A stretch of DNA of 55,608 bases from Verrucomicrobiota bacterium (lineage in GTDB: Bacteria; Verrucomicrobiota; Verrucomicrobiia; Limisphaerales; UBA9464). The notes beneath the pieces are model-generated. The model was not told the DNA's origin. It saw only the letters and a list, made by a program, of their open reading frames with translations, and made no database searches. The translations under genes were made by a program, and so were the position numbers. Positions 32,002-42,796 of the stretch are shown here, in pieces (positions within the stretch are counted from its first letter, which is position 1; each line of letters starts with the position of its first letter). The stretch covers positions 1-55,608 of the forward strand of contig JAFLEF010000051.1 in NCBI GenBank assembly GCA_017309115.1, given 5' to 3'.

Positions 32002-34737
32002 ATGAAATCAATACCACTTGTTCGCGGGATTCATCCGCCGGTGCGGATGCCCTTCACTCAGTTACGCGGGACCTGTTCTGCCTTGTTAGCCACTGCAGCC
32101 GTGTTCGGTGCGGTGGGAAGTGTCCAGGCCCAGTCCGACAATTTCGATTCTGGAGCCCTTGGGCCGGCTTGGTCCAAGGCGGAGTTTTTTCCGCAGAACT
32201 ATACGTTTGTGGACTCGGGGGCCGGCAAGGCGTTGCGGATCCGCGCGAACCCGGTTCCGGAAGCGGCGCCAGCAGCGGCGGCCATTACTCAGACCAATAT
32301 CTACACCGACTTTTACGTCGCCCTGGATGTGGTGGATTGGGCGATCAAGGATCAGGCCCTAGTGTTGCTCGCCCAGTGGACCCCGGGAGGCGCTGCTGGC
32401 TTGGCCGAAGGCACGGGAATGATCCTGAACTATGATGTGGCTCAAGACGGAGAAGGCGACGGCGACCGCAAAGGCGGGCAACTCCAGATTAATTCGATTG
32501 CGCCCGGATTTGCCGCTTCCACCAAGGCGGCGGCCGATATCACGCTCGAACCTGGGCGTTCGTATCGGATGGTGTTCCAGGGCGTGGGAACAATCTATAC
32601 CGGCAGGGTCTACGATCTTCATGACCTGACGAAGCCCCTGGTGACCATTCAGGTGGATGATTCGACCTACAGTACGGGTCAGTCCGGTTTCCTCTCGTTT
32701 AGCCGCAATGGCACGGTCGGTGTCACGGACGTCACCATCGACAACTACGTCGCGGGCGTGACTGATCCCCATACAGCACTTGCTCCTGCCTTGCCGCATC
32801 CGGTTGCGGGAACGCCGTTCGTGGTGACCCGGACTCCCGCCAAGCGCTTCACCAATTTTCACCCAGTGGCTTCGGGAATCAGCTTCCAAGCGCAGACCCT
32901 GACCTCTGGTCAGATCAACGCGGCGGCGACCAAACTGTTCCTGAATGGCACCGATGTCTCCGCGTCGCTGGCGCCGCTTCCGGCCAATGGTTCCACGGTG
33001 AGCTTTACCACTGCGGCGGGAACCCTGAAGTCCAACATGGTCTATTCGGCCCGGATTGAAGTTCAGGACACCACCGGCGCCCTGCGGTCCACGAACACCT
33101 TCTGGTTCGACACTTTCACGGACGCCTACCTCGCTGCGGCCCCAGTTCGAACCATCGAAGCCGAAGATTACAACTACGGTGGCGGCCAGGCTCAGCTGGG
33201 TGCCATCCCGGTGTCGGGTCTGGACTTGAACGGGAACTTGGTCGGCGGAAATGGCTCGGGCTACTACGGCGCCGTGGGTACCGCGGAAGTGGACTACTTC
33301 AAACCTGGTGGCTTCTACAATCTCGACTACGCCGAGTATCGCCCGGAGGACCGCGTGCAAATTACCCAGGGGGCGTATCAGACCCTCAGTCGGGATGAAG
33401 CAGCCGACATTTTGGACATGAACACCATGGCCAATGAGACCTATCGCATCCACGACACCCAACGTTCCCAGTACACGACGGCCAAGGTTTATGAGTATCA
33501 AGTCCGGTTGACCACCCCGGGTGACTGGATGAATTACACGCGCACCTTCGCCGCCGGGAAATACCAGGTTTACGTACGAGTCGGCAGCTTTGACTCCACC
33601 GTCGTGCATTTGGATCGGGTGACGAGTGATCCCACAGCCCTGAATCAGACCACCACCCGGCTGGGGAATTTCAACATTCCCAATCAGTTCATGCGGCTCA
33701 ATTATCAATACGTTCCGCTGGTCACGGACGCCGGTGCTCCGGCCGTGGTGGACCTTTCCGGAACGCAAACCTTGCGCCTGACCTTGGGCGGGAATCCGAC
33801 CAAGGACGCCCGCTTGGTGTCGCTGGACTATCTGTTGCTCGTGCCCGCGGCGGCTGAGGACACGACCACCATCTTCGACGACTTCAATGATGGAACCGAC
33901 ACGGCCAACCCGGCATGGGAACATTATGATCCCATTGGCGGTCTCACGGCGCCTCCTGCTCAGTTTACCTTTCCGGACGGGCACTATCGCATCATTGCCC
34001 CGGCCCAGCAGGCTCCAAACTGCGACGCCGGACCGGCTCGGGCGGGCAGCTTTATTCGCGGGGCCACCTATGATGATTTCCACGTCTCCGTGGATGTCAT
34101 TGATTTCGACGACACGGTGCGACAGGCGTTCGGTATCGGGGCGCGCATTGTGAACCCAGGTCTGGGAACGACCGGTGGCTATTTCTTCAGCTGGGAACCG
34201 GGTGGCGGCGTGCTGCCGGGTGAAAACAACGGCGACCTCGATATCTCCATCCTGGTCGACGAAGCCGCCGTCGGACAGATCGAGACGGCCCCCAGCGGAT
34301 TGCACCTCTCCAAGGGTAAGAACTACCGGTTCGTCTTCATGGGCACGGGCAACAACTTTGAAGCCCGGGTGTACGAACTGCCGGATACGTTCAATCCCCT
34401 GATCGTCCTACCGGGCACGGATCCCGACAACACCTACACCAGCGGTCAGGTGGGTCTGATTGTCGCCAGCAACGGCGATTGCGAAGTGGGTGCGGATGCC
34501 ACGTGGGACAACTTCCTGGTCAAGATTCCGGATCCCACGCCGAGCCTCGCCATTAGCACCTCCGGCAATAGCGTGACGCTGACCTGGGCTGGCGAGACCA
34601 ATGTGCTCCAGAGCTCGCCGAGCCTCTCGAACGCCCAGTGGACTGCGATTACTACCGGCATCACCGTGGTCAACGGACAGAGCTCCTACACCACGACAAT
34701 GGGAACGGGCGCATACTACCGCGTGGTCACGCCGTAG
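32002..34737 (+). CDS. Large secreted protein with duplicated LamG-like domains and a CBM-like centre
   Basis: A 911-residue secreted protein (signal peptide ending near VQAQ). The N-terminal domain (about 45-250) and a C-terminal domain (about 625-840) are clearly related: both start with a DDF/DNF-G-tract, contain a YDDFHVSVDVIDFDD- or YTDFYVALDVVDW-type strand, share GRSYRMVFQGVGTIYTGRVYDL / GKNYRFVFMGTGNNFEARVYEL, and end in DNF/DNY. They look like concanavalin/laminin-G beta sandwiches. In between, RTIEAEDYNYGGGQ and the TPGDWMNYTRTF run suggest a CBM6-like sugar-binding module. The tail NVLQSSPSLSNAQWTAIT...GAYYRV is a common verrucomicrobial secretion/anchoring tail. A carbohydrate-binding or surface role is inferred. 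Confidence 0.75.
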   Translation: MKSIPLVRGIHPPVRMPFTQLRGTCSALLATAAVFGAVGSVQAQSDNFDSGALGPAWSKAEFFPQNYTFVDSGAGKALRIRANPVPEAAPAAAAITQTNIYTDFYVALDVVDWAIKDQALVLLAQWTPGGAAGLAEGTGMILNYDVAQDGEGDGDRKGGQLQINSIAPGFAASTKAAADITLEPGRSYRMVFQGVGTIYTGRVYDLHDLTKPLVTIQVDDSTYSTGQSGFLSFSRNGTVGVTDVTIDNYVAGVTDPHTALAPALPHPVAGTPFVVTRTPAKRFTNFHPVASGISFQAQTLTSGQINAAATKLFLNGTDVSASLAPLPANGSTVSFTTAAGTLKSNMVYSARIEVQDTTGALRSTNTFWFDTFTDAYLAAAPVRTIEAEDYNYGGGQAQLGAIPVSGLDLNGNLVGGNGSGYYGAVGTAEVDYFKPGGFYNLDYAEYRPEDRVQITQGAYQTLSRDEAADILDMNTMANETYRIHDTQRSQYTTAKVYEYQVRLTTPGDWMNYTRTFAAGKYQVYVRVGSFDSTVVHLDRVTSDPTALNQTTTRLGNFNIPNQFMRLNYQYVPLVTDAGAPAVVDLSGTQTLRLTLGGNPTKDARLVSLDYLLLVPAAAEDTTTIFDDFNDGTDTANPAWEHYDPIGGLTAPPAQFTFPDGHYRIIAPAQQAPNCDAGPARAGSFIRGATYDDFHVSVDVIDFDDTVRQAFGIGARIVNPGLGTTGGYFFSWEPGGGVLPGENNGDLDISILVDEAAVGQIETAPSGLHLSKGKNYRFVFMGTGNNFEARVYELPDTFNPLIVLPGTDPDNTYTSGQVGLIVASNGDCEVGADATWDNFLVKIPDPTPSLAISTSGNSVTLTWAGETNVLQSSPSLSNAQWTAITTGITVVNGQSSYTTTMGTGAYYRVVTP

Positions 34738-35709: not shown

Positions 35710-38700
35710 CTACGGCGTCACTTCCAGAGTGCCGGCGTCGAGCGGAGTTTCGGAGGGTTCCGGTGGCACGACGACCAGAGCCGGGCTAAGAGCGAGTCGA
35801 GCAAACGGGGGAAGCGAGTTGGTGCCATACAGATGAACTGAAAGCCGATACTCACCAGCCGGGACCTCCAGAAACCGAGCTGAGCCGTCGGATTCAATCT
35901 TTGCGCCAATTATACGGTGATGGCTTCGGAATCGACCCGTGGGTGCATCCACAAAGGGGGCTTCGGTCAGCCGGGCAAACGAGCGAAGGCGCTGGGCTTC
36001 CGGCATTGAGTCAGGCCAGACCACTCGCGCCAGCACCGTGCGGCGTGGAGACGTGACCTGGAGGCGGTTGGTCTCGCTGGATGTGGACACAACCCTCTGG
36101 AAGAAGCTGGTCCGTTGCGAATTTCCCTGGCGGTAACCCAGGAACAAGGCGTGTTGGCCCGGCGGCACTTGAGTGAAGGAGAAGTTGCCTTGGGAGTCCA
36201 CCGACGCCTCGGAATCCATTTGCCCGTGGTTGGGGACAAGTCCGAGCGATTGACCATCACTCAGGGCGATGAAGGACACGGGAGTTTCACTAACGGCGCT
36301 CAAGTGACCTTCGATCCGGCCCCAACGCTCCAGGGTAAGCGTGGACTGCGCCCGAAGATCTCGAGCGGAAAGGAGGGCGAATCCCTGCGGCGCTGCGATC
36401 GCGACTCGTTCGATTCCGGGGTGGAATGGAAGGGTGACCCGCCCGGCGACGTCCGTCTTCAACAGCTCGTCATCCGAGTTTCTAACGTGGAACTGACCAT
36501 TGGCGAAGGCTACTTGGCTGCGGGCGGTGAGCGGAGCCACGGTAGCGCCGGGAACTGGGTTCCCGTCGGTGTCCACGACCCAACGCTCCAGCGGTTCGAG
36601 CCGATGAAGTTGAAAATGAATCTCAGCGCCGGGGGCGTTACTGGGGATCCGGGCGCTAAACGAAGGGGCATAACCGGGAGCCAGGCAGCGGAGGACGTGT
36701 TCGTAGGATTCCCCTGCTTGGCGGAATTCCTCCAGTACCAACTGATAGTGTCCGTTGCGAAACTGTTTGGGTTGTTGCGGAGGCCACAGGATGTGCCAAG
36801 TGCCCATCGGAGACAGATCCCGGTAGAGACCGGCTTCGACTGAAAAGCTGGAAATGTTGTTGCCTGTCGCGGCGTCCGTGACGGTGCCGTGAAACGTTCG
36901 TGCCGGGTTGAGCTCGAGAGTCTGTTCCGCTTTCGAAGTGTCGATGGTCATGGAAAATCGCTCATAACCGGTAGCGTATCCGTTCACGGACAAGGCGGAG
37001 GTGGGTGCGTTGGTCCAGACGACCCATCCGTTGGTATCGGATTTCCGAATTCCGCCCGGGACATAGTCCGGCGGTTCGCCGGTCTGCAAGTAAACGAACG
37101 CACCTGTGACTGGCGTTTGCTCGGGGCCGACTACTCGGAGCTTCACGGTTCGTCCGGGCATCAGAACGATCCGATGGTCCATCAAATTGGTCGCATTGAG
37201 GGCGAACGGGGTGAGGGGGTAGCCGTTTCCCAGAACAAAGAGTCCCGAATGACCCGGCTGAATTCCATTGAGGAGGAACCGGCCGTCTTCGTCGGTGCGT
37301 GTTTCCGGACAGTTTGAACAAGTCGATGGCTCGCTCGTGGTGGACACCATGGCATCCGCCACGGGCTGACCTTCGGGATCGACGACGATTCCTCCGGCCG
37401 TCATCGACGGAGTTAGACGCACTTCCCAGCGGGCTTCCCGGAGCTGCGCATTCTCTTCGGGATTTCTAAGGGGAAGCTTGTTTCCGTAATTGCCGAACTC
37501 CGCATGGGACGCCTGGAAATGAAGCCCGTTGAGAGCCGACTCGGCGACCCGCCGGGTTTGCCAGTGGCCCGAGGCATCGGTCTCCACCTTCACGCGGGGC
37601 AAGAAGCTGCGAGGCCCTTGGCGATCCGTTCCCCGCTCGTTGTATTGGATGATTTGGATTTGAGCTCCGGCGATCGGCGACTCCTCCGTGTCGAGAACGC
37701 GTCCTCCGAGAAGAATGCCTGGTTGCAGCTCCAACACGTATTCGGCGGGAGGCAGTTCGCCTTCGCTCAGCTTCCAAGACAGTCGGACGTCGGCGTAGCC
37801 TTCTCGTTCGGTCTGAATCTCCAGCACCGACAGGTTGGTGGCGTAGGGAATCCAGACGAATCCGCGGGTGTCGTTGGTGAGGACCTCGTTCTGGCCGCTC
37901 CGGGATCCCATCCGCACCACCCGCAACAGGGTGTTGGTCACCGGGCTTTGTTGGGGATTCCGGATGGTCAGCCGAAGTCCGGTGGTATCCGCGTCGGGAG
38001 CGCTTGCGACGGTCGCGGTCCCCTGGTTGGAAGGTGCCAGGCCTTCAGATTCATTCTGGCCGACAAGGTTGATCGCCGCCCGGGGCGAGTCCTCTGAACG
38101 GGTTGCCTTGGGGTTCCGGTCGCTCAGGTTCCACCACGTCAGACCCGAGACGAGCGCCAAGCCCACCGCCACCCGGGTGGGATGGAGAAGCCAGGCGAGC
38201 AGACCGCCGCCGACGGTGGCCACGGCCGCGGGGGCGGTGGCGCGGAGAGCGATTCGTTCGACCCAGCCCGCAGGAGGGGAAGCGACGGCGTGTTGTCCGA
38301 GAACGAGTCCCAGGGCGGCCGCAGTTGAGGGAATGCCCCGTTGTTGCAGGTTTTCGCGGAGTTTCTCCAACGCCCGTTCCACGCGCATTCGGGCGGCATT
38401 CTCCTGAATGCCCAACCGATGGCCGATTTCGGCATGGCGCGCCTTTTCGAAGAATCGCCACAACACCAGTTCGCGGTCTGGCGAGGGAAGGGATTCCAAG
38501 GCGCGGTCCAATTCGGGGCGGAATTCCTCCCATGCTGGCTCCGTTTCTGGGGCGAGCGGTCCACTAGCACTGGCCAGCTCCCGTTGACGCTGCCGAACTC
38601 GAGCTCGCCGGTGGTTGAGGACGACGTGTCGGGCCGTCTGAAAACACCAGCCGGCCAAGCTGGGATGCTGAGCCAACTCCTTCGCTTGGCGGGCCAAGCG

Positions 38701-38883
38701 CAGGAACACTTCCTGGGCAACGTCTTCGGCTTCGGACGAGTCTTCATCCAAATGACGGTGCGCGACCCCCAAAACCAAAGGTAGGTGGCGTCGGACCAGG
38801 TGTTCGAACGCGGTGGGGTCGCTGCCCTGGAGATGGCGTCGCAGGAGTTCCGAATCTGAATCGGGCATGACTGAGGTCTTCAT
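35710..38883 (-). CDS. ECF sigma factor fused to a membrane segment and large carboxypeptidase-regulatory-like region
   Basis: A 1057-residue fusion. Residues about 10-100 are sigma region 2 (AEDVAQEVFLRLARQAKEL, then AGWCFQTARHVVLNHRR). Residues about 125-178 are sigma region 4, with the helix-turn-helix HAEIGHRLGIQENAARMRVERALEKL. A linker typical of verrucomicrobial ECF proteins leads to one or two hydrophobic helices (about 217-252). The remaining 800 residues contain several carboxypeptidase-regulatory-like beta domains (for example ILLGGRVLDTEESPIAGAQIQI, AGGIVVDPEGQPVADAMVS, ERWVVDTDGNPVPGATVA). This makes a membrane-bound sigma factor with its sensor in one chain. Start at 38883; an ATG at 38868 is the alternative. 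It is divergent from a secreted propeller-like protein. Confidence 0.85.
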   Translation of the reverse strand: MKTSVMPDSDSELLRRHLQGSDPTAFEHLVRRHLPLVLGVAHRHLDEDSSEAEDVAQEVFLRLARQAKELAQHPSLAGWCFQTARHVVLNHRRARVRQRQRELASASGPLAPETEPAWEEFRPELDRALESLPSPDRELVLWRFFEKARHAEIGHRLGIQENAARMRVERALEKLRENLQQRGIPSTAAALGLVLGQHAVASPPAGWVERIALRATAPAAVATVGGGLLAWLLHPTRVAVGLALVSGLTWWNLSDRNPKATRSEDSPRAAINLVGQNESEGLAPSNQGTATVASAPDADTTGLRLTIRNPQQSPVTNTLLRVVRMGSRSGQNEVLTNDTRGFVWIPYATNLSVLEIQTEREGYADVRLSWKLSEGELPPAEYVLELQPGILLGGRVLDTEESPIAGAQIQIIQYNERGTDRQGPRSFLPRVKVETDASGHWQTRRVAESALNGLHFQASHAEFGNYGNKLPLRNPEENAQLREARWEVRLTPSMTAGGIVVDPEGQPVADAMVSTTSEPSTCSNCPETRTDEDGRFLLNGIQPGHSGLFVLGNGYPLTPFALNATNLMDHRIVLMPGRTVKLRVVGPEQTPVTGAFVYLQTGEPPDYVPGGIRKSDTNGWVVWTNAPTSALSVNGYATGYERFSMTIDTSKAEQTLELNPARTFHGTVTDAATGNNISSFSVEAGLYRDLSPMGTWHILWPPQQPKQFRNGHYQLVLEEFRQAGESYEHVLRCLAPGYAPSFSARIPSNAPGAEIHFQLHRLEPLERWVVDTDGNPVPGATVAPLTARSQVAFANGQFHVRNSDDELLKTDVAGRVTLPFHPGIERVAIAAPQGFALLSARDLRAQSTLTLERWGRIEGHLSAVSETPVSFIALSDGQSLGLVPNHGQMDSEASVDSQGNFSFTQVPPGQHALFLGYRQGNSQRTSFFQRVVSTSSETNRLQVTSPRRTVLARVVWPDSMPEAQRLRSFARLTEAPFVDAPTGRFRSHHRIIGAKIESDGSARFLEVPAGEYRLSVHLYGTNSLPPFARLALSPALVVVPPEPSETPLDAGTLEVTP

Positions 38884-38986
38884 ACCGTTTACATCGCCAC
38901 TGAACCAGAAAACGCACACGGAGGTTGGGGAAGTTTACCCATGGCATTGCGAATGCTTTACGAAGTTCCACTTCCAACTGAATTCT

Positions 38987-40324: not shown

Positions 40325-42796
<2,472 letters not shown>

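Follow-up and report, generated by a model that had tools for sequence, protein, structure and literature searches.

The window analysed here (the whole stretch of DNA, positions 1 to 55,608 of contig JAFLEF010000051.1, assembly GCA_017309115.1, 55,608 nucleotides (nt) from a Verrucomicrobiota bacterium of the order Limisphaerales) carries on its minus strand a gene whose product, the window protein, is an extracytoplasmic function (ECF) sigma factor (group 4 sigma-70) with regions 2 and 4 both present, continued in the same chain by an array of beta domains. We consider it fairly probable that this protein is a one-piece transmembrane sigma factor, with a sensing or docking part in the periplasm, which is freed to activate its own promoter. 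The argument is carried by the domain order, the family to which the protein belongs, a promoter element common to this family, and a covariation between the recognition helix of region 4 and the -35 bases of that element, all established by computation. The parts of the gene are as follows (lengths in amino acids, aa).

35710..38883, minus strand: gene of the predicted membrane-tethered ECF sigma factor, a single open frame of 1057 aa from an ATG
38593..38799, minus strand: Sigma region 2, residues 29-97 (Pfam Sigma70_r2, E 3.2e-13)
38353..38502, minus strand: Sigma region 4, residues 128-177 (Pfam Sigma70_r4, E 9.6e-9)
38371..38397, minus strand: recognition-helix stretch AARMRVERA, residues 163-171 (covariation and structural alignment with sigma-E)
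38218..38322, minus strand: linker poor in charge that follows region 4 and has predicted helices, residues 188-222 (AlphaFold, charge, P204)
38122..38172, minus strand: likely single membrane helix, residues 238-254, its place uncertain within 215-254
35713..38016, minus strand: chain of CarboxypepD_reg-like beta domains, probably periplasmic, residues 290-1057 (Pfam and AlphaFold)

Sigma factor and beta domains in one chain

The window protein reaches 83.5 bits with the general ECF model of NCBIfam (TIGR02937 sigma70-ECF, cut-off 42.9) and passes no other NCBIfam cut-off among the best 25 of its 89 matches; its PDB matches include ECF sigma factors. CarboxypepD_reg is matched over four stretches (Pfam E 3.1e-25, 88.8 bits against a cut-off of 32.3). 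An alternative upstream GTG start would give 1069 aa, and the ATG is favoured because a promoter-like block at 38909-38923 overlies the GTG; Pfam positions were renumbered from the GTG frame to the ATG frame. An earlier note on this DNA, made from its letters, had described the sigma regions and the beta domains as a single unbroken chain of 1057 residues, and had named a frameshift or assembly join between the two as what would overturn that description. The frame, the Pfam matches and the relatives bear the description out. We could exclude such an artefact: the gene contains no N and no internal stop, GC content and GC at third codon positions (GC3) show no step at the junction between sigma and beta parts, and the beta region aligns with nine relatives from other genomes (L069, L086, L087, L100, L113, L115, L125, L136 and L137; 1094-1121 aa) over 592-823 columns at 25-30% identity. 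These nine relatives argue against both a frameshift and an assembly join, and they indicate that the long architecture is a conserved type.

A family with a common cassette and varied outer parts

A search with residues 1-267 of the window protein identified 21 paralogous members in its own genome, the window gene included, which score at least 105 bits and have frames of 393-1173 aa; the next ECF sigma factor scores 53 bits. Two ECF-like genes of the same genome, C101:5317-6033 (L032) and C29:50917-51531, with frames of 579 and 588 aa, lie outside the family by score. A profile of the 21 members matches 28 of 58 sampled genomes of the order at E 1e-60, own genome included. Across a sample of the phylum, with at most 22 candidates scored per genome, 15 of 115 genomes match at E 1e-25 and seven, again counting the own genome, hold a match of at least 240 bits. 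Finally, a scan of named genome contigs with a conserved nine-residue pattern yielded 78 distinct loci, of which 74 are labelled verrucomicrobial, three 'bacterium' and one 'Proteobacteria'. The sigma part encoded by this last locus (L079:144-1025, contig 'Proteobacteria bacterium PHREA1') is identical to that of the own-genome member L042, so that its label or binning is probably wrong.

The cassette of sigma regions, linker and helix is common to the family, and the outer parts vary, with beta domains, TonB_C, SLBB or coiled coils. When the parts past residue 262 were compared among 99 proteins (21 own and 78 named), they fell into clusters of 43, 24, 12, 3, 2 and 2 members plus 13 singletons, the window protein sitting in the cluster of 24. 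CarboxypepD_reg occurs in nine of the 21 own-genome members. Outside the window cluster, 72 members scanned individually against Pfam at E 0.01 gave TonB_C in ten (best 2.8e-21), SLBB_2 in one (7e-10) and HEAT_2 in two (L048 and L049), both under the Pfam cut-off; some members end in coiled coils, and weak TPR matches were seen as well. Two of the sigma factors with a C-terminal TonB_C are encoded at L083:5992-7311 (E 1.4e-17) and L084:1733-3025 (2.8e-21). On the sigma tree, which has many weak branches, the three main C-terminal classes (79 labelled of 99 rows) require 14 changes, where 100 shuffles never gave fewer than 27, which suggests that these classes are mostly inherited, with several exchanges. 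The single-window reading of the earlier note gave the chain, which our data support, and a membrane contact, which they make likely; the family, its outer modules and the promoter covariation described below were not visible from there.

Some class A members had seemed by eye to carry pseudopilin- or secretin-like C-termini, which was not confirmed: Pfam Secretin reached only 0.0045 in L107, under the cut-off, and a profile of the pseudopilin-like domain gave no PDB match under E 0.46. In seven members (L044, L095, L099, L101, L117, L121 and L141) the C-terminal domain is conserved and shows a YGFADGHSE-like motif; by eye it resembles the ends of Verrucomicrobiota pseudopilins, a resemblance that the Pfam and PDB profile searches did not confirm. 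In the own genome, the pseudopilin-like domain matches, besides itself, one short stretch in a decayed member (C34:47525-48075, minus strand; L033 and L148). There, a sigma N-terminal fragment with an internal stop lies near a short C-terminal piece of class A type.

A shared promoter element before the sigma genes

Two blocks of a putative promoter precede the window gene.

38909..38923, minus strand: predicted -35 block of its own promoter, CTCCGTGTGCGTTTT (two-block fit)
38889..38902, minus strand: predicted second block on the -10 side, ending about 5 nt before the ATG; two fits differ by one base

The element was first spotted by eye upstream of the own-genome members. Plain counting of upstream 6-mers finds nothing above shuffles (6 versus a mean maximum of 5.87). 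An unseeded two-block fit scores 40.1 on the own set, against 15.9 far upstream and 10.6-17.8 in five block shuffles. With a seed taken by eye from the own set and given identically to the controls, the fit reaches a log-likelihood ratio (LLR) of 134 for the own 21 members, compared with 27.5 far upstream and 16-50 in 20 shuffles; for the named relatives the LLR is 699, with control values of -47 (far upstream) and -53 to -23 (20 shuffles). This named set holds 77 of the 78 loci, L079 being omitted for having too little upstream sequence. From the start of the element to the start codon the median distance is 45 in the own set and 46 in the named set. Among the named relatives the consensus reads TTTTTTGTGCGGTTT, then 6-7 bases, then CGGCGGGTGCTAT. 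About a dozen bases separate its end from the start codon, from which we infer a very short or absent leader. The search for conserved promoter motifs that the earlier note had suggested did reveal a shared element; it lies before the sigma genes themselves, and no further target came with it.

Covariation of the recognition helix with the -35 bases

Writing the recognition helix as AA-x1-x2-R-V, the window protein has R165 at x1 and M166 at x2, the residues that covary with -35 bases. Own-genome members that differ in the recognition helix were seen to differ in their -35 bases as well. After this pattern had been noted, 80 members were fetched from other genomes of the order and the element was refitted with its four variable bases held neutral. 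The resulting 178 loci came down to 175 once near-identical upstream regions were dropped; the two-block element scores over 3 in 161 of them, and the 14 loci at or below 3, among them L041 and L057 of the own genome, were left out of the counts. At all 161 loci, Lys stands at x2 exactly when C is the first variable -35 base (61 and 100 on the two sides of the rule). The rule holds at 76 of 76 loci in the later-fetched set (54 and 22) and at 19 of 19 in the own set (7 and 12). The mutual information of x2 with the first variable base is 0.97 (maximum 0.08 in 500 permutations) and that of x1 with the second is 0.80 (permutation maximum 0.13), although the permutation figures overstate independence because relatedness among the members remains. 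Columns beyond the four variable bases stay at or below 0.105.

The identity of x1 goes with the second and third variable bases. Lys at x1 is accompanied by C at the third base in 18 of 18 cases (this base also occurs in 4 others), Arg by CG at the second and third bases in 95 of 99 (also in 5 others), and Gln by GG in 31 of 41 (in no others). Typical cores, named after x1 and x2, are TGTGCGG or TGTTCGG for RM, TGTTACC for KM, TGTCCC for KK, TGTCGGA for QK and TGTCCGG for RK. Because the pattern used to find the named set fixes the helix as ARMRV, x1 and x2 are constant in that set, and only the own and order sets vary at these positions.

The structural model aligns with region 4 of sigma-E on -35 DNA (2h27) over 69 residues at a root-mean-square deviation (rmsd) of 2.0 and an offset of 5-6, which places x1 and x2 at or beside sigma-E R171 and S172. 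In PMC6713349, S172 is described as contacting base -34 and R171 as contacting -31 and -32. If the first variable base corresponds to -34, x2 fits exactly and the base most strongly linked to x1 lies one step off the reported contacts, an agreement that is good but not perfect. Together, the element and the covariation make the family members look like working, self-activating sigma factors, as far as sequence can tell. Activation of the own promoter is frequent among ECF sigma factors in general, though not universal.

Membrane helix and topology

Topology was assessed on 96 of the 99 proteins, three having been dropped beforehand. The last hydrophobic stretch after region 4 has a mean hydropathy of 1.94 and reaches at least 1.4 in 91 of the 96. 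For the window protein, the best hydropathy windows are 215-233 (1.54) and 226-244 (1.53). AlphaFold, run on the cassette with 70 sequences (mean predicted local distance difference test, pLDDT, 84.6), places a helix at 238-254 with a block pLDDT of 51-64, and the family alignment sets these same residues opposite the membrane helices of other members. The window protein thus likely has one membrane helix somewhere in 215-254. Between region 4 and this helix, two further short helices are predicted (188-198, and 207-216 in the cassette model or 207-222 in the full-length model), within a linker modelled with good confidence (block pLDDT 81-92 for residues 181-220). The roughly 50 residues past region 4 are nearly chargeless across the 96 members, and P204 is almost invariant among 70 members. 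The 'one or two hydrophobic helices' of the earlier note was a fair hedge, with one likely spanning the membrane and the two short ones predicted ahead of that helix.

The five residues preceding the membrane helix contain K or R at 0.16 and no D or E (96 members), and net charge, taken from means as K/R minus D/E, is about +1.0 before the helix and about +0.2 after it. TonB_C and SLBB domains are periplasmic. From the charge pattern, and from the position of these domains beyond the helix in relatives, the topology would be N-inside with one pass and C-outside; a single pass with a periplasmic outer part is well supported by these sequence features, and beta domains outside the cytoplasm are the best reading of them.

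The full-length AlphaFold model, built from 56 aligned sequences (the window protein and named relatives), has a mean pLDDT of 81 and a predicted template modelling score (pTM) of 0.56. Residues 223-287 are of low confidence and are followed by beta domains up to the C-terminus. This region, whose structure prediction the earlier note had proposed, is indeed modelled mainly as strands (pLDDT 70-97, with some low loops). Foldseek matches the full model to cell-surface pilins, alpha-2-macroglobulins and ushers, all at low TM-score; they say little, since beta-sandwich chains match widely.

Alternatively, the hydrophobic stretches after region 4 could form a membrane hairpin, with the C-terminal part serving as a cytoplasmic arm for protein interaction. 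The first stretch does reach a hydropathy of 1.6 in 35 of the 96 members, and the coiled coils and the weak HEAT (under cut-off) and TPR matches at some C-termini would suit such an arm. However, a hairpin would leave TonB_C (10/72) and SLBB_2 (1/72) in the wrong compartment, the basic, acid-free residues before the last helix disfavour a periplasmic loop at that place, and the first stretch is confidently modelled as the short helices of the linker. We therefore find a hairpin improbable.

Search for further targets

In the own genome, the strict motif has three matches, all before family genes, and a reversed-pattern control has three as well. Of 50 matches to the relaxed motif, four precede family genes, and the control gives 58; the KM-type motif has 5 matches and its control 13. 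Inspection of 16 own-genome motif loci yielded no convincing target. In genomes of the order, the QK-type motif has 51 matches against 3 in the control. Thirty of these were fetched: nine lie before sigma genes of the family (the frame of L254 is broken, and L257 was recognised by eye), and 17 of the other 21 lie within coding-like frames. Judged by coordinates, seven of the remaining 21 matches lie just before family genes, so that the excess over the control is only partly explained.

These counts bear on the idea that the family is self-serving, each member chiefly switching on its own gene and the C-terminal parts being passengers acquired by fusion. The strict matches in the own genome, all at family genes, the relaxed counts, which do not exceed the control, and the many unrelated C-termini speak for it. 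Against it, conservation of the long beta class across genomes extends over its whole length, the C-terminal classes track the sigma tree (14 changes, as above), and targets may have been missed, the scans being pattern-based rather than weighted whole-genome ones. We see little chance that this idea is correct.

A proposed path from membrane to promoter

In the mechanism that we favour, regions 2 and 4 would reside in the cytoplasm, joined by the short helical linker to one membrane helix, and the C-terminal beta chain would be the sensing or docking part in the periplasm. At rest, the sigma part would be kept at the membrane and would probably adopt a closed form. It would be activated by a change in the outer part, most likely through stepwise cleavage that ends in the membrane with an RseP-type protease, and the freed sigma part could then start transcription at its own promoter, amplifying itself by positive feedback. 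The predicted arrangement of regions 2 and 4 is consistent with a closed form, with an rmsd of 6.6-8.8 (149-157 residues) to CnrH/CnrY, SigW/RsiW, SigG1 and RpoE/NepR, as compared with 22-29 to polymerase-bound ECF sigma factors.

It is also conceivable that the sigma part acts while tethered, much as the membrane-bound activators ToxR and CadC do: the outer part would change its shape or clustering without cleavage, and polymerase would be recruited at the membrane. The evidence on architecture applies equally to this possibility, no cleavage site is known, and the linker past region 4 is conserved, as expected if it passes on a change of shape. On the other hand, the sigma part would need to hold polymerase and promoter at the membrane, and the one characterised fused membrane ECF sigma factor, IutY, is cleaved by Prc and RseP (PMC8999054). 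Action in the tethered state is accordingly rather unlikely in our judgement, without being negligible.

Several observations weigh against the mechanism that we favour. Anti-sigma-bound SigK (rmsd 13.4) and BldN (13.5) fit the predicted arrangement less well, at intermediate values, and the closed form is a prediction made without an ordinary ECF sigma factor predicted as control. An RseP-type protease gene is present in the own genome and likewise in all 14 control genomes, which leaves the cleavage step possible and nothing further; no protease partner or cleavage site was identified. The window protein's own membrane helix is weak relative to the family mean and unsettled in position. N-in/C-out is favoured by net charge only and not by the raw K/R count: over 15 residues, 52 of the 96 members have more K/R behind the helix than ahead of it, 20 have fewer and 24 show no difference. 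On a tree built with both helix residues masked, x2 and the first variable base change nine times each, and only three independent pairs fall on supported branches (3/3 agree), too few for significance. Lastly, the searches, by pattern only, found no target beyond the family's own genes.

Gene neighbourhood

The earlier note had remarked that no anti-sigma factor is encoded nearby, and no anti-sigma family appears among the Pfam matches of the seven frames that surround the window gene. Pfam matches there are limited to a PanB-like enzyme, a peroxidase and a fragment of cytochrome c peroxidase. More widely, 41 frames beside the 21 own-genome members were collected with a simple open-reading-frame script, the divergent neighbour of the window gene being added by hand; no anti-sigma family was found among 25 of the 49 Pfam families listed for them, and no recurrent gene family stood out. 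Three plus-strand frames of the window may be mentioned in addition:

32002-34737, plus strand: a 911-aa frame with a secreted-like start and no Pfam match up to E 0.01
40616-42796, plus strand: a peroxidase-family gene of 726 aa
43636-44166, plus strand: a frame matching the end of di-haem cytochrome c peroxidase and cytochrome c

Relation to known sigma factors and significance

ECF signalling usually involves two proteins, a sigma factor and an anti-sigma factor. Todor and colleagues reportedly published a predictive treatment of ECF promoter specificity in 2020, so that inferring specificity from the helix is, in principle, nothing new; no such rule for this family was found in the literature searched. 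Nor did we find a description of the family there, in a search that was weak, with subscription papers mostly outside it. Many ECF sigma factors with C-terminal extensions are distributed across groups, and their characterisation is described as only begun (PMC8103513).

Fused membrane ECF sigma factors are already known, with IutY and the predicted groups ECF48, ECF52 and ECF53 among them (PMC8999054). According to the same source, IutY of Pseudomonas putida (ECF243) likewise has a sigma part, a membrane helix and a periplasmic part in one chain; its sigma part is fused to a membrane anti-sigma factor, and it serves as the model for release through Prc and RseP. IutY acts together with a cell-surface signalling receptor and includes an anti-sigma region in its chain; no such domain turned up in the window protein. 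The anti-sigma region of IutY is of the FecR type, and FecR has no Pfam match in the window protein up to E 1; a receptor gene is also absent from the Pfam matches of the seven surrounding frames.

The actinobacterial groups ECF48, ECF52 (SCO4117) and ECF53 are likewise described with a C-terminal fusion that comprises one or two helices in the membrane and an outer part, the latter carbohydrate-binding in SCO4117; a zinc-finger domain is described for them too, and their extensions reach at most 400 residues (PMC8999054; PMC5826349). In contrast, the window protein, from a different phylum, continues for about 800 residues beyond its membrane helix, has no zinc-finger match in Pfam up to E 1, and has cysteines only at 80, 522, 525 and 733, none of them in the linker. 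ECF57 resembles it in bearing a long C-terminal extension on an ECF core, there of WD40-like repeats (PMC8999054); the window protein has no WD40 match (Pfam, up to E 1). Regulation by the sigma factor's own C-terminal extension is also found in ECF41, ECF42 and ECF56 (SigJ, SigG1). The extensions of these groups are soluble and short. The sigma arrangement of our model resembles that of SigG1 (149 residues, rmsd 8.3), whose extension is given as SnoaL_2 in PMC7730460.

For the phylum as a whole, we hold the balance to be even on the wider proposal that Verrucomicrobiota possess a large set of one-component transmembrane sigma factors, built of a conserved cassette and exchangeable periplasmic sensors such as beta-domain chains, TonB_C and SLBB, each switching on its own near-leaderless promoter, with a -35 readable from two helix residues, so that the wiring of up to 21 sensors per genome would be predictable and could be re-programmed without an anti-sigma factor. 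If true, the union of sensor, anchor and sigma factor in one chain would constitute a further large route of transmembrane signalling, in a phylum whose regulation has been little tested and where the own genome alone holds 21 members with varied outer modules. With the helix/-35 rule the family can be tested directly, and the rule supplies candidate parts for orthogonal promoters. Members that end in TonB_C may couple directly to outer-membrane receptors, and they pose the question of whether a sigma factor can be linked in this way.

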